From an uncultured Verrucomicrobia subdivision 3 bacterium (lineage in GTDB: Bacteria; Verrucomicrobiota; Verrucomicrobiia; Limisphaerales; UBA8199), in the NCBI GenBank assembly GCA_903913865.1, contig CAIWMU010000037.1, positions 1 to 32,875 on the forward strand: a DNA stretch of 32,875 nucleotides, given 5' to 3'. A program made the position numbers and the translations under genes. Numbering within the stretch: position 1 is the stretch's first letter; each line of letters begins with the position of its first letter. Under the pieces are notes generated by a model. The model ran no database searches and was not told the DNA's origin. It saw only the letters and a list, made by a program, of their open reading frames with translations. Shown here piece by piece: positions 1,926 to 32,875 of the stretch.

Positions 1926-4900
1926 TTACCAGCGTACCCGATAGAACTTCTTGCCCGCAGCGCTGGAGGCGGTGTAAGGGGATGTTGCAGCCACCAGAGA
2001 AGACCACGGACCGGCAACATCAGAAGCCTCCTCGAGGAGTCCGGCATTCCAGGTGAGTGAGAGCGTTCCCGGGGTGGGCTTGCTTATGGAAAGGATCGCG
2101 CTTTGTCCTGTCGCACGGAGGTAGTGCCGGGCCACTTGCGCCGGGGACAGCCCGTAGGAGTAGATCGCTGGCTCATCGATACCCCCCTGAAAGAATCTTT
2201 CTGTGACGGTGCTGCGTGAACCTATGGCCCAACCATCGGCAACCGTAAGCGCCCCTACGCTGTTCGTGCTGCGTGCCACCAGCGTCCCGTTGCGGAACAG
2301 ATTCCATGCAACGCCATCGTAGGTTCCCACCAAGTGCACCCAGGTGCCGATGTCATTGGCGGGAACGGCATAATTGACCCCGTAATTCGCACCATCATAG
2401 GAAACAATCTGATAGGCGCCGGCAAAGACGCGCAACGCTAATTCCCGGGTGGGTGAACCACCGAAGCCGTGGGCGATGATGTTTCCATAGCCGCCTCCGG
2501 CATAGTTGGTGAGCGGTTTGATCCATGCCTCAAGGGAGCACTCTCCGGAGATGTTCAACCCGGGGTAATTTTCAAAGGTGATCGACTGGCTGGCACCGTC
2601 TAAATCCAGGGAATAGCCGGTGGCGGGCGTTGCCCCCGGTGTCTGCTGGGCACTGGAGTTTATATATTGGCCCTGGTAGGCGCCAAAATTGTAAAGTTCG
2701 AGAGCAAGGGTGTCCCCCAGCGTCTCGTCCAAAGGAAAGTAGGCAGCCGGGCTGTCGTTCATCACAACAGCGCGGTAGCCGGTCTGTGTGACGGGAACAA
2801 TCGTCAGGGTCACCGGGGTGGTGTTGGTTGCACCAGCACCGTTCGAGATCAGTGCGGAATAGGTGCCCGCATCTCCGGGGGCTGCACTTCGGATCACGAA
2901 AGTGCTTTCGGTGGCTCCGGGAATTGTGGTTCCGTTCCGGGTCCACTGGTAGGCGATCGGGAAACTGCCCTCAGCGAGGGCGGTTAGCCGGATCAACCCG
3001 CCGGCGTAGTTTGTGAGGGACTCCGGTTGCTGGAGGAGGATGGGAGGGGTGTTCGGGCCATATTTGGCGATGCCATAGTGCCTGGCCACTTCGGAGGGGG
3101 AAATGGCCCGCGAATAAATGGCGGCCTCATCGATACTGCCGAGGAAAAAGTCGGCCGGGGATGGCTGGAAGGTTCGTCCGGCACCGATGCGGACCGGCAC
3201 CTCGACAGCGAACACAGGAAGGCTCTGGGAGCCGACCTCGCGACCATCCACATAGAGACGCTTGGTGGTCCCATCGTAGGTTGCCACCAAATGCTGCCAT
3301 TCACCGGGCAGGATAGTGCCGCCACTCAGGTCGTTCCAAAACTCACTCGCAGGGGATGTGGCATAACCAGTGCGGAATTGCCAGGTCACACCGCTTCCCG
3401 CCAGTTCATAACCGCTCGAAAAGTATTGGTTGCGTGAGCAAATGACAGACTGGCGACCTCCAGATGCATCCGCCTTGACCCAGGCCTCAAGGGTGAAGCC
3501 AAAGGGATGCTGGAGTGCCGGAGAGTAGGGTAGTTCAATGTAGTCAACCCCATTGAAGGTGGCTGAGGTGTCTGGATCCTGCGAGACGGCACCGGGGGAT
3601 TGCAGTTCGGAGCCAAAGAAATTGGAGAGGTAGCCAGTGTGGAGGGTGGTTGTATCCTGTGCCACGGTGGATCCATTCTGATCCCCCAACCTCCAATAGG
3701 CAGCCACGGCACCGCTCTCCAGAACTGACCGGGCGTAAAGAGATGATGGCACCGGAACCACCTTCAAGGGGGCCGGGGTGCTGATTGCAGTCTGGCCGGC
3801 AAGCTGCACACGCACCGAGTAGGAGTTGGCGTCCGCCAGGGTCGCAGAGGAAATGGTGTAGCTGGAAGTGGTGGCTCCAAGGATGTCTGCTCCGGCTTTG
3901 AGCCATTGGTAGGTGTAACCGGTGCTCTCAGATGGCATTTTGATAGACCAACTGGCGATCCCCCCCTGTAACACTGTCAACTCGGCAGGTTCCAAAAGAG
4001 GCGTGGACCAGGATAGTGTTGCGCTCGTGCTGAGAACTCCTCCAAATGGATTCGTGATCCCAACGTTGTATCTGCCTATGCTCGCGACCGTCACAGGACT
4101 GATTGTCAGAATCTGGTTGGTTCCGGAGGTCAGGTTCGCATCGTCCCGCTTCCAGCGAAAGGAAAGGGGAGGACTGCCGCTTGAGAGGCCCACAGAGAAC
4201 GAAGCGGTCGAGTTGGTCGCTCCGAGGATTGCTGCGGCATTAACGGGGGACCGACCGATGGCCGGAGCAGTGCCGCTGCCATAAACCATCTGAATGATCT
4301 GGTTGTCGCTGAGGGCTTCGTCATAGATGCGAACATCGTCAAGACCGCCCAGGAAGGTGGCGCCGAAGTTGTGGATCGAAACGCCGAGATGCACAGGATA
4401 AAGGGCGGATGTGCCTGTTCCCGTCAAGAGTGCCTGGGATGGGGCGCTGTTAACCGTGAATGTCTGACGATTCCCATCGACATAAAGGACCAGATTGGAC
4501 ATCCGGGCATTTTCCGGTGCGACGACTGCCACATGGTGCCAATTTCCATCTGCAACCACGGTGTTCCCGACGACCGCAGCACCGGCGATTTCGGTGCGCA
4601 GCTTGCCACCATTAGCGGGATCGACCCGGAAGCTGAACCGGGTGAAATTGGGTGCGGTGGTTCCGTAGCTCAGGAGAGTCCCCAGACCGGCATTCTGGCC
4701 TATCATGCTGGCTGGAACTTTCACCCATGCGCTGAAGGTCCGTGCCAGTCCGCCAGTGGGTGCGTAAACATCGGTTGTGATGTAACCCCCGCTCAGGGCG
4801 GGGAGGGGAACCTGATAATCCAGATAAGCAGTGCTGCCTCCCTCTGTGGCAGGGATGGGAGGAAGCCCTGTGGTCGTCCAGACCGGAATGGCCGTTCCCG

Positions 4901-30265: not shown

Positions 30266-32179
30266 GTGAGTTACACGTACACAAACCGGTTGCGCGCCCG
30301 TTTGACGGTGGTGCTGCCCCATGCCTCACCCTGGGAACAGACCTACGCATACGACGCGGGCAAGCGCCCGACGGGCACCACCTCTCCGGCGGGCGGCTTC
30401 TCGTATGCTTATGTCACGAATCGCCAGTCATTGGTCCAGGTTTTAGCAGTTCAAAACGGAGCGAAGATCACCAATGCCTTTGACAGCGTGGCGCGCCTTG
30501 CCGGCACGTTTTTGCGCAATAGCCAGGGGACTGCCATCGATGTGCAAAGCTACATTTACAATCCCGCGGGACAACGCACGAATGTCACCCGGACCTTGGG
30601 GGATAATGTGACCTATATTTACGACCAGATCGGGCAACTTCAGCGGGTGATTGGCCGGGAGGCCGGGGGCAGCCCCAGCCAGTTGAACGAGCGGTTTGGT
30701 TACAAGTACGATGCCGCCGGGAATCTGAATTGCCGGACCAATTACAGCCTCGAGCAGACGTTCAACGTCAATAGCCTGAATCAGGTGACCACGGTCACCC
30801 GGCCCCCGGGCGGTCAGGGCAATCCGCTCGTGGTGTCAGGCACCACCAGCGGGGGAGCGACCAACGTGAGTATGTCGGGCACCGGCATGACCCCGAGCAC
30901 GCCAGCATTGTACGCGGATGGCACCTGGGCGTTTTTCGGCGCCACACTGGCCGAGGGCACGAACACCTACCCGGCGGTGGCGGTGGGCACTCATGGGCGA
31001 ACGGACACTAACACCGTTAGTGTCTATCTGCCGCAGACGGTGTCATATCGGTATGACCTCAACGGGAACCTGTTGAGCGATGCTCGGCGCGGGTTCGATT
31101 ACGATGATGAGAACCAATTGATCCGGGTTACCATCACGAACTCGACCCGGAGTGATTTCGCGTATGACGGCAGGATGCGGCGTCGAGTGCGGGTCGAATG
31201 CACTTGGGTGAGCGGGGCGTGGGTGACCAACGAGATCGTGCGCTACGTTTATGACGGCAACCTGGTCGTCCAAGAGCGCCATTACGTCCGGCAACCAGCG
31301 GGTGAGATCTTGCAGCAGGTGATCAGCTACACCCGGGGGAAAGATTTGAGTGGCAGTTTGGAGGGCGCGGGCGGCATCGGTGGCCTATTGGCCCGCTCCG
31401 ATCTCTCAACCCTCAACTTTCAACCCTCAACCAGCCATGCCTATTACCACGCCGATGGGAATGGCAACGTGACCTGCCTGATCGATACGAATCAGGTCGT
31501 CGTAGCCAAGTATCTGTATGAATCGTTCGGCAACATCATCAGCCAGACCGGCCCACTCGCGGACGCGAACCTGTATCGCTTCTCCACCAAGGAGTTTCAT
31601 CAGCCGTCTGGTCTGGTTTACTACCTTTACAGGTATTATGAACCAAATTTGCAGAGGTGGCTTAATAGGGATCCAATTGGGGAGAGGGGTGGAAAGAACC
31701 TTTATGGTTTTGTAGCCAATGAGCCGCTCGACAAATATGACCCGTTTGGAGAAGACATTGGTCCGAAAGACCACCCCCCCGTACCTCCGCAATTTGGTAA
31801 GAAACCGTTTGTGACGGGCAGAGATAATTGTCTTTGCTACGCTTTAGACCGCCCTGGGAAACCTCTACAACCGGACGGTGGGAAAGGAGGGAAGAACGCC
31901 ACGAATTGCCAGGACCCGAAGGAGCAGATTAAGAAGAACTACCCAGGGGTGACGGATGTTCCGAGGGGGCGCTTCTTTGGGGAGGGCAAATGCCCACCCG
32001 GCACACATAAGATCGCGGTGTTTTCCGATGAGGGCACTCCTGGCTACCATGTGCAGCGGCAAGATTCAGAAGGTGGCTGGTCTGATATGAGCCTAAGCCC
32101 GGACAGAGCCCCGGCGAAGTGCAAACGGGGTGATTCCGGGACAGATTGTGGAAATTTATGTGCTCCAGACCAGCCATAA
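30266..32179 (+). CDS. N-terminally truncated RHS/YD-repeat protein with Cys/His C-terminal domain
   Basis: 637 residues from a GTG start. YD repeats (YAYDAGKR, YIYDQIGQL, YKYDAAGNL, YRYDLNGNL, FDYDDENQL) surround an inserted Ig-like segment (about 190-250). The RHS-associated core then runs YYHADGNGNVTCL to NRDPIGERGGKNLYGF and closes at DPFG (492-495). After the core comes a unique 142-residue Cys-rich domain. It holds DNCLCYAL (C522, C524), GYHVQRQ (H595) and GGWSDM (W605), a Cys...His layout that suggests a papain-like or amidase-type enzyme; this is inference. There is no signal peptide, and an in-frame stop lies 24 nt upstream of the GTG. The delivery half of the protein is therefore missing. 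G+C falls visibly from about 31610 on, inside the core. Confidence 0.85.
   Translation: MSYTYTNRLRARLTVVLPHASPWEQTYAYDAGKRPTGTTSPAGGFSYAYVTNRQSLVQVLAVQNGAKITNAFDSVARLAGTFLRNSQGTAIDVQSYIYNPAGQRTNVTRTLGDNVTYIYDQIGQLQRVIGREAGGSPSQLNERFGYKYDAAGNLNCRTNYSLEQTFNVNSLNQVTTVTRPPGGQGNPLVVSGTTSGGATNVSMSGTGMTPSTPALYADGTWAFFGATLAEGTNTYPAVAVGTHGRTDTNTVSVYLPQTVSYRYDLNGNLLSDARRGFDYDDENQLIRVTITNSTRSDFAYDGRMRRRVRVECTWVSGAWVTNEIVRYVYDGNLVVQERHYVRQPAGEILQQVISYTRGKDLSGSLEGAGGIGGLLARSDLSTLNFQPSTSHAYYHADGNGNVTCLIDTNQVVVAKYLYESFGNIISQTGPLADANLYRFSTKEFHQPSGLVYYLYRYYEPNLQRWLNRDPIGERGGKNLYGFVANEPLDKYDPFGEDIGPKDHPPVPPQFGKKPFVTGRDNCLCYALDRPGKPLQPDGGKGGKNATNCQDPKEQIKKNYPGVTDVPRGRFFGEGKCPPGTHKIAVFSDEGTPGYHVQRQDSEGGWSDMSLSPDRAPAKCKRGDSGTDCGNLCAPDQP
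31405..31432 (+). repeat. CTCAACC-type tandem repeat inside RHS coding sequence
   Basis: CTCAAC-CCTCAAC-TTTCAAC-CCTCAAC encodes STLNFQPST in frame within the RHS protein, just before the core. The sequence is repetitive at both DNA and peptide level and unlike the surrounding YD repeats. Similar NPQLSTLN-type peptides recur in Verrucomicrobiota proteins as far as I recall. Confidence 0.6.
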
Positions 32180-32397
32180 TCAATTTAGGGTTCGCCGTTG
32201 CATTAGTTGTCATGGTTGCAATCATCTCCGGTTGCTGTCGATATTCTCGCCGAGCAATCGATGGTTCGCGGCTTGATGTCAGACTGACAGCAGTAGATTC
32301 GCCCGGTGAGATTGAGCGAATCATCAGAACGAGTTTGTCTGAGACAATATTCGGCCACAAACATGGCGGATGGCTACACGATGTTTCCCGTAACTAA
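32158..32397 (+). CDS. Lipoprotein N-terminal fragment, candidate immunity gene (frameshifted)
   Basis: A 79-residue frame starting at an ATG that overlaps the RHS stop by 22 nt; another ATG lies four codons earlier (32146). It has a hydrophobic signal (NLGFAVALVVMVAIISGCC) with a lipobox-like ISGC, so the mature N-terminus would be an acylated Cys facing the periplasm. The frame stops at 32397 after ETIFGHKHGGWLHDVSRN. A second frame continues from about 32363 with conserved-looking sequence, so this is probably one gene broken by a single frameshift. Its position directly behind an RHS toxin-like C-terminus is where immunity genes lie. No domain is recognised. Confidence 0.5.
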   Translation: MCSRPAIINLGFAVALVVMVAIISGCCRYSRRAIDGSRLDVRLTAVDSPGEIERIIRTSLSETIFGHKHGGWLHDVSRN

Positions 32398-32662
32398 TGG
32401 TCCAACGCATTGGCTATTCGTCCAGGTGGCCAATGCTCCAAGAGGACTAGCAATGTTTAACTTGCTCTGTTATGAGCAAGAAAGAGCCGGTGAGTGGTTG
32501 CTTAGGGCCTATGTTCCAATAAATGAGTATTACTACACAAATGGCGATGATCGGCTTGTGGCATTTAAGATCGATGATGACAACATCAAAGTAGTTTTCC
32601 GAGGGGCGGTTATTTTCACTGGTGCATGCAAGAAAGAGGTGGCTAAATCGGGACCCGATTAA
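32363..32662 (+). CDS. C-terminal part of the split lipoprotein, or a separate small protein
   Basis: A 99-residue frame overlapping the previous one by 35 nt and shifted by one base. It contains GPTHWLFVQVANAPRGLAMF, then EWLLRAYVPINEYYY and DDRLVAFKIDDDNIKVVFRG, which read like a compact beta-rich domain. It has no signal of its own, which supports being the continuation of the lipoprotein. If translated alone, its start would be the ATG at 32363. The function is unknown; periplasmic immunity against the RHS C-terminal domain is an inference. The sequence is A+T-richer than most of the window. Confidence 0.5.
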   Translation: MADGYTMFPVTNGPTHWLFVQVANAPRGLAMFNLLCYEQERAGEWLLRAYVPINEYYYTNGDDRLVAFKIDDDNIKVVFRGAVIFTGACKKEVAKSGPD

Positions 32663-32742
32663 TGAATTGGTAAAAGGGTCAAACCATAGCATTTGGCATT
32701 TTATAGTTGACTCAAGCTTGGGAATGGTGGCAGGTTTGGACC

Positions 32743-32875
32743 ATGCCGCGCAAACCGCGAGTGCAATATCCTGGAGCGATTTACCATGGGGTCAGCCGGG
32801 GAGATCGGCGCGAAGCCATCTTCGTAAACGATGTCGATCGGCACGACTTTCTCAGGACGCTGGCGGAGGCCTGCC
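32743..32875 (+). mobile_element. REP-associated tyrosine (Y1) transposase, 5' end only
   Basis: MPRKPRVQYPGAIYHGVSRG followed by DRREAIFVNDVDRHDFLRTLAEAC is the conserved beginning of RAYT/TnpA-REP transposases of the HUH superfamily (pattern YPGA.YHV..RG.RR..IF..D.DR..FL). They cut and join single-stranded DNA and are linked to REP palindromes. The catalytic Tyr and the HUH motif lie beyond the window end. A TTGACT hexamer lies 30 nt before the ATG (32707-32712), but no good -10 follows. Confidence 0.85.

Follow-up and report, generated by a model that had tools for sequence, protein, structure and literature searches.

Does the RHS gene at the right-hand end of contig CAIWMU010000037.1 end in a toxin domain, and is the lipoprotein gene that overlaps it the matching immunity gene? 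The contig comes from an uncultured Verrucomicrobia subdivision 3 bacterium (assembly GCA_903913865.1, 6.27 Mb in 267 contigs). It was analysed in its entirety (32,875 bases) and is called the window here. A preliminary description of the sequence had proposed such a pair, with a papain-like or amidase tail acting in the periplasm. We consider it probable that the tail, which we call the NC domain, belongs to a new family of papain-like RHS toxins acting in the cell envelope, and that its partner belongs to a family of lipoprotein immunity proteins.

Conserved residues of the RHS tail

The RHS gene (30266-32179, forward strand) starts with GTG and encodes 637 residues. They represent the C-terminal part of an RHS protein, without a signal peptide or N-terminal region. 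As in RHS polymorphic toxins, an RHS core stands before a variable C-terminus. The RHS-associated core domain (31517-31750, forward strand; TIGR03696, 72.1-75.9 bits, cut-off 32.5) covers residues 418-495 and ends with DPFG (31739-31750). The 142-residue tail that follows (31751-32176, forward strand) contains DNCLCYAL, GYHVQRQ and GGWSDM, as first described. A further 14 RHS tails were parsed in relatives; it differs from all of them, and none has the NC motif. The regular expression NC..Y / YH..R / W gave one match in the window and none in 200 shuffles.

Homologues of the tail were found after RHS cores in other genomes, and the family to which the preliminary description had pointed (NC.YAL / YH.YRQ / WS) is real. 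In alignment A7 (13 rows) residues N30, C31, Y34, C85, H104, R107, Q108 and W114 of the tail are invariant, which are residues 521, 522, 525, 576, 595, 598, 599 and 605 of the RHS protein. In alignment A2, a set of 12 rows including non-RHS members, the invariant residues are N30, C31, Y34, P45, H104, R107 and W114. The window is one of the rows in A7, A8 and the RHS core profile; its score against any of these three is therefore not an independent one. Either Cys522 or Cys524 had been proposed to act with His595. Cys522 (codon 31829-31831, forward strand) and His595 (codon 32048-32050, forward strand) are invariant in both alignments, which leaves Cys522 as the predicted nucleophile. Cys524 was ruled out for this role, as it is not conserved.

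Distribution of the NC domain

The window was left out of the search with the tail alone and of the partner profiles; genome counts include the host genome. The window tail alone matched 7/293 genomes of the order at E <= 0.01, two of them by chance. The NC-domain profile matched 8/320 genomes of the order. The domain was RHS-borne in five of these (G000, G035, G201, G217 and G227), two had a fusion with the SGRPNP domain described below (G041 and G191) and one had a LysM-like insert (G088). Six of the 387 genomes of the phylum matched, with one chance match and one uncertain, as did 4/274 genomes in the class of the Parabeggiatoa genome. Among 60 relatives of genome G409, G409 alone matched, with three copies. 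Named genome contigs gave 5 loci, of which L008, L010, L011 and L012 come from metagenome-assembled genomes of Verrucomicrobia. Four overlapping scans of viral contigs gave 1, 1, 8 and 5 loci. Three plasmid records carried a domain of the L015 type (weakest E 3e-3), and plasmids gave no match when searched with the window tail or the L009 tail. One record was found in the phage collection, on which the L013 protein was the sole query used.

Altogether we distinguished 11 RHS-borne copies: the window, L008, L009, L010, L011, L012, L014, L019, L020, L022 and L023. Three loci in which no NC domain was seen on inspection were set aside as chance matches (L004, L005, L018), and a partial, broken and uncertain match (L017) was left out of the counts. 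L028/L035, with the domain in two frames, and L047, with an internal stop, were not aligned. Repeated loci were counted once (L002 with L008, L003 with L011, L006 with L010, L007 with L012, L030 and L086 with L009, L021 and L025 with L013, L035 with L028, L036 with L022, L037 with L029, L038 with L024, L039 with L026, L040-L042 with L014/L020/L019, and further L043-L046, L090-L092 and L094).

Two of these loci deserve separate mention. In G409, which carries the RHS-borne copies L014, L019 and L020, two copies precede proteins with a hydrophobic N-terminus and the third is degenerate. At L008:3722-4429 we observed an open frame of 235 aa in which a signal-peptide-like stretch is combined with a minimal RHS core end (RWATRDPIEEEGG) and with the NC domain. 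Judged by its sequence, this is a mini-RHS that might be exported by itself.

Predicted fold of the tail

No match above cut-off was obtained with the tail in Pfam, NCBIfam, PHROGs, PADLOC or PDB sequences. Profiles of NlpC/P60, CHAP and the Pfam papain toxins gave nothing up to E 5 with the window tail or E 1 with the 13 members of A7. Pfam DUF7689 (PF24738) matched the larger part of the NC domain in the window (13.8 bits, E 0.1) and in the phage protein L034 (15.5 bits, E 0.029), in both cases under the curated cut-off of 22.6 bits.

We relied on class consistency among structural neighbours of two predicted models rather than on one match, since Z values of the level obtained can, by the warning of VIA-align itself, reflect merely a shared arrangement. 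The model of the window tail was middling (predicted local distance difference test, pLDDT, 64.8; predicted template modelling score, pTM, 0.64), and that of the L022 tail was good (pLDDT 85.8, pTM 0.83). In both, one helix starts at the NC pair, another helix is present and the conserved His lies on one of the strands. As in clan CA, the invariant Cys would lie near a helix N-terminus (helix 30-36 of the tail model) and the invariant His on a later strand (103-108), as placed in the predicted models. Foldseek returned nothing at E <= 0.001 for either model, and nothing convincing was found for the tail in a viral structure library. The best VIA-align results were Z 5.5 (root-mean-square deviation, rmsd, 3.9, 103 aligned) for the window model and Z 4.5 (rmsd 3.7, 104 aligned) for the L022 model. 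The 50 rows obtained per model were predominantly papain-fold cysteine enzymes, with the fold of each PDB neighbour assigned from its title. They included staphopain, C39 peptidases, Josephins, phytochelatin synthase, NlpC/P60, CHAP, Tae1, Tae3, Tae4 and ubiquitin proteases. One row of the window model was clearly not papain-like (1ri6, putative isomerase), and YopQ, a Citrobacter CdiA-CT and a 'bacterial peptidase' had uninformative titles. From these models we infer a papain fold for the NC domain. The papain-like Cys/His enzyme proposed earlier thus stands on the invariant NC and H..R residues and on the neighbours of two models, but none of the matches is significant by itself.

The lipoprotein gene is split in the window

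A reading frame that starts with the ATG at 32158 shares 22 nt with the end of the RHS gene and carries the ISGC lipobox (32224-32235), in agreement with the preliminary description. As is characteristic of bacterial lipoproteins, its hydrophobic signal region ends in the lipobox Cys (INLGFAVALVVMVAIISGC, peak hydropathy 3.35). A lipobox-plus-hydrophobic rule matched this frame only in the window, while 40 first-order Markov shuffles gave a mean of 0.1 matches. The frame had been thought to continue to 32662. No such single frame exists: the lipobox frame closes at 32397 after 79 aa, and the rest lies in another frame.

The N-terminal part of the lipoprotein gene, with the signal peptide, occupies 32158-32397 and the body 32297-32662, both on the forward strand. 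We searched 637 six-frame segments of the window with a profile of the intact partners of L008, L010 and L011. The best match was the frame-2 segment 32297-32659 (E 8.7e-11), followed by the lipobox frame (E 0.041). Once the profile had been enlarged by five relatives to 8 intact sequences, the values were E 6.2e-29 for the 32297 segment, 5.8e-4 for the lipobox frame and 4 for the next segment. L097, one intact open reading frame (ORF), matches the two window halves in succession (38% over 48 aa, E 9.5e-6; 47% over 108 aa, E 2.3e-35). Because both halves match successive parts of intact single-frame relatives, they belong to one protein. Comparison of the sequences places the shift at about 32340-32370. 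The frame change may be a mutation or an assembly error.

The RHS gene is also incomplete, and both this truncation and the split of the lipoprotein gene had been missed by the preliminary description. The window RHS aligns with part (residues 1504-1971) of L081, an RHS protein of 2095 aa that is encoded in the same genome and opens with a signal-peptide-like stretch. No N-terminal export or delivery region was found in the window protein, as its ORF begins inside the RHS part. Two long RHS proteins searched against the window matched the RHS ORF (from 30404 on) and 3554-3928 only; the second match (E 1e-4) lies inside a laminin-G/Ig gene, and no RHS repeats were found upstream of the RHS ORF. 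Behind the lipoprotein gene there is a remnant of another RHS core (RWLNRDPINE..., 32631-32726, forward strand; E 8.7e-4 among 637 window segments).

These features suggest that the module may have decayed, leaving a shortened RHS tip and a defunct immunity gene, neither of them functional in this genome, even if the family is a toxin elsewhere. The beginning of the RHS protein at the counterpart of about residue 1500 of its long relative, the split lipoprotein and the core remnant all agree with decay. On the other hand, the toxin ORF is open and keeps every invariant residue, a lone frameshift could be an artefact of the draft assembly, and RHS tip cassettes can be reused through recombination. 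We regard complete loss of function here as an even chance. Unless the frameshift is an assembly error, the window probably contains an RHS tip cassette that has been displaced and has lost its function as a pair.

Pairing of the tail with its partner in other genomes

For each RHS-borne copy we looked for an ORF of at least 70 aa (80 aa in controls) starting from -60 to +90 nt from the RHS stop. Such an ORF was present behind 10/11 tails, and all ten had a hydrophobic N-terminus (peak hydropathy 2.38 to 3.74). The remaining copy, L019, in which the RHS frame is cut short, had no downstream ORF in range.

The partners of the window, L008, L010 and L011 form one family, and those of L008, L010 and L011 align mutually. 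The L022 partner is a distant homologue (18.0 bits, E 6.2e-7 among 6 sequences), so that a homologous partner accompanies 5/11 RHS-borne copies. The homologous partner spans four genomes from four families of the order. A search for the same lipoprotein behind other RHS cores, suggested in the preliminary description, was thus successful at L008, L010 and L011 and, distantly, at L022. Pfam gave no match to the partners up to E 1, save a sub-threshold one for the L009 partner.

The partner profile matched 9/313 genomes of the order, in four of them beside NC tails and in five elsewhere. The 10.3-19.5 kb examined around each of the five lone partners contained neither an RHS core nor an NC domain (E <= 1e-3), though two of the partners are near the edge of this stretch: L100 lies 0.3 kb before the end of its contig and L101 2.6 kb after the start of its own. 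Toxin-free immunity genes are a usual trace of polymorphic toxin systems, and these copies fit an immunity role as far as their sequences allow. The proposed toxin-immunity pair is supported by the tail and lipoprotein in three other genomes of the order, by L022 and by the lone partners, while the window copy itself is split.

NC domains outside RHS proteins

Non-RHS NC proteins recur with a partner that bears an FSGRPNPTW-like motif or a relative of it, either in a separate neighbouring gene or as an N-terminal fusion. The SGRPNP partner is encoded separately at L015, L016 and L087, each with a signal-peptide-like start, and at L028/L035, where it lies upstream. It is fused at L031, L032, L047, L048 and L088. 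Three SGRPNP partners matched no Pfam family above cut-off. This protein may be an inhibitor or a prodomain of the NC enzyme.

Other contexts were more varied. L049 (G088:C99) has a LysM-like insert between the His and W motifs (Pfam LysM, E 0.001, 19.4 bits, cut-off 20.9). L034:845-3043 (phage PV036447.1, 55180-57378) encodes an Anaeroplasmataceae phage protein near a holin gene, with a sub-threshold trypsin-like domain and an NC domain, and is followed by a lipoprotein-like gene. Giant-virus-like viral contigs, so described from the gene content of L013, encode a stand-alone NC protein (L013, L024, L026). Tentatively, and with somewhat less than even confidence, all these proteins may belong to one superfamily, so far without a name, of papain-like enzymes of compact size (NC..Y ... 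H..R ... W) that serve as a shared weapon: RHS tips against envelopes with exported immunity, bacterial and plasmid forms with SGRPNP as a possible built-in inhibitor, the phage form near a holin, and the giant-virus-like form alone.

Site of action and likely substrate

Several observations weigh against an envelope toxin with lipoprotein immunity. After His595, residues Arg598, Gln599 and Trp605 are invariant in A7 and no Asp, Asn or His is; no conserved third catalytic residue was seen in the NC domain. No structural match was significant (best Foldseek E 0.22 for the window model and 0.12 for the L022 model). The controls for pairing comprised 30 loci of relatives with 14 parsed RHS ends, 2 of them without an ORF and with less than 90 bases left. 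Seven of the 12 other RHS tails also precede a hydrophobic N-terminus (peak hydropathy > 2.0), and 10/11 against 7/12 is no significant excess (one-sided Fisher p 0.095), so that the excess at NC tails is suggestive at most. For this reason we treat location as weaker evidence than homology and reject the argument that a lipoprotein neighbour alone proves a periplasmic toxin. The L010 partner is a weak relative with no blastp match to the window halves, and at L009, L012, L014, L020 and L023 the partner is not significantly similar to that of the window type (E >= 0.011), so that other immunity families would be needed there. Finally, the giant-virus-like contigs carry the domain without any visible toxin context.

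If the tail is an envelope toxin, the RHS tip would deliver it into the envelope of a neighbouring rival cell. There it would act as a small papain-like cysteine hydrolase with a Cys522-His595 dyad and attack a peptide bond outside the cytoplasm. Most likely it would cleave peptide bonds either in peptidoglycan or in a protein of the envelope, and in kin cells a lipoprotein anchored in the periplasm would bind the toxin before it acts. Periplasmic action on peptidoglycan is plausible. As a substrate we favour peptidoglycan slightly, at a little under an even chance, from the size and fold resembling Tae/NlpC enzymes, the LysM-like insert in L049 and the phage member near a holin, all of them weak hints. 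We rate proteolysis of envelope proteins as about equally likely, and the predicted structures do not separate an amidase from a protease.

Alternatively, the tail could be a papain-like protease that acts in the cytoplasm, as Cpe1 does on GyrB/ParE, with the lipoprotein intercepting the toxin as it enters. Interbacterial toxins of the papain-like type include Cpe1 (PMC12136450), and the structural neighbours of the NC domain include C39 peptidases and the papain-like toxin 9l5u. We find cytoplasmic action unlikely: the partners begin with a hydrophobic segment at 10/11 loci, the 9l5u match is weak (Z 4.0), and several common cysteines suggest an oxidising compartment. Still less probable is that the NC domain serves processing or adhesion at the end of RHS proteins, the adjacent lipoprotein having some other role; this would suit the occurrence of the domain in non-RHS proteins, several beside or fused with SGRPNP, and on giant-virus-like contigs, and the toxin role is a prediction, but the domain sits at the variable RHS end with an overlapping or close downstream gene, and that neighbour is homologous across four families of the order and elsewhere occurs without RHS.

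Surroundings of the locus and the host genome

A profile scan of ten larger ORFs elsewhere in the window identified an oxidoreductase, malic enzyme, glucanotransferase, MFS transporter, amylase, polyprenyl synthetase, ketopantoate reductase and others, mainly of common metabolism and transport. At 32743-32875 a further protein starts (MPRKPRVQYPGAIYH...) and is cut off by the contig end. Its first 44 aa gave no Pfam match; we take it to be REP-associated transposase-like. The host genome contains 11 RHS core matches at E <= 1e-10. In G119, a 6.9 Mb genome of the host's family, we found 44 RHS core matches, several sharing contigs, which makes a large RHS repertoire.

Comparison with known toxin systems

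Papain-like domains known from polymorphic toxins include Tox-PL1, PL-2, PL3, PLOTU, PLC39, PLDMTX, NLPC/P60, TGase and UCH (Zhang et al. 2012, PMC3482391, in the parts consulted for all statements on this source). The NC domain resembles them in its predicted papain-like character, many of them occur in RHS proteins, and Tox-PL1 also has NC followed by H. The types in their table are NC,H,D (NC-H-DxQ in the text), C,NxxH,DN, C,[DE]H,[DE],R and C,H,D, whereas the NC domain has NC..Y, H..R and W with no conserved Asp. Verrucomicrobia are named in none of those papain-like table entries.

Cpe1-Cpi1 is comparable to the proposed pair: a papain-like interbacterial toxin with adjacent immunity and RHS proteins among its carriers (PMC12136450). 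Cpe1 reached a DALI Z of 16.3 to ComA; the window model reached Z 4.4. The NC-domain partners differ from Cpi1 in beginning with a hydrophobic segment. Tae1, Tae3, Tae4 and the NlpC/P60 peptidoglycan enzymes are small papain-fold enzymes and stand among the neighbours of both models, but there was no sequence-profile match and their structural Z was at most 3.6. The comparison with NlpC/P60, CHAP and papain folds that had been suggested earlier yielded mainly papain-fold neighbours, without a profile match and at a best E of 0.12 and a best Z of 5.5. Imm65 is an immunity protein with a signal peptide and lipobox, as proposed for the partners of the NC domain, but it pairs with Tox-JAB-1 (PMC3482391), and the partners described here match no Pfam family. 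The similarity to DUF7689 stays below its curated cut-off, and a text search of a literature collection found no paper naming DUF7689 or the family motifs.

In summary, papain-like RHS toxins and lipoprotein immunity are already known from the published work cited, and the NC family itself, compared by sequence, matches no curated model above cut-off. For the RHS genes of Verrucomicrobia our results offer one proposed family of toxin domains and one of partner proteins, with intact pairs at L008, L010 and L011. If the association with SGRPNP were also inhibitory, one enzyme fold would be accompanied by at least two unrelated partner families.

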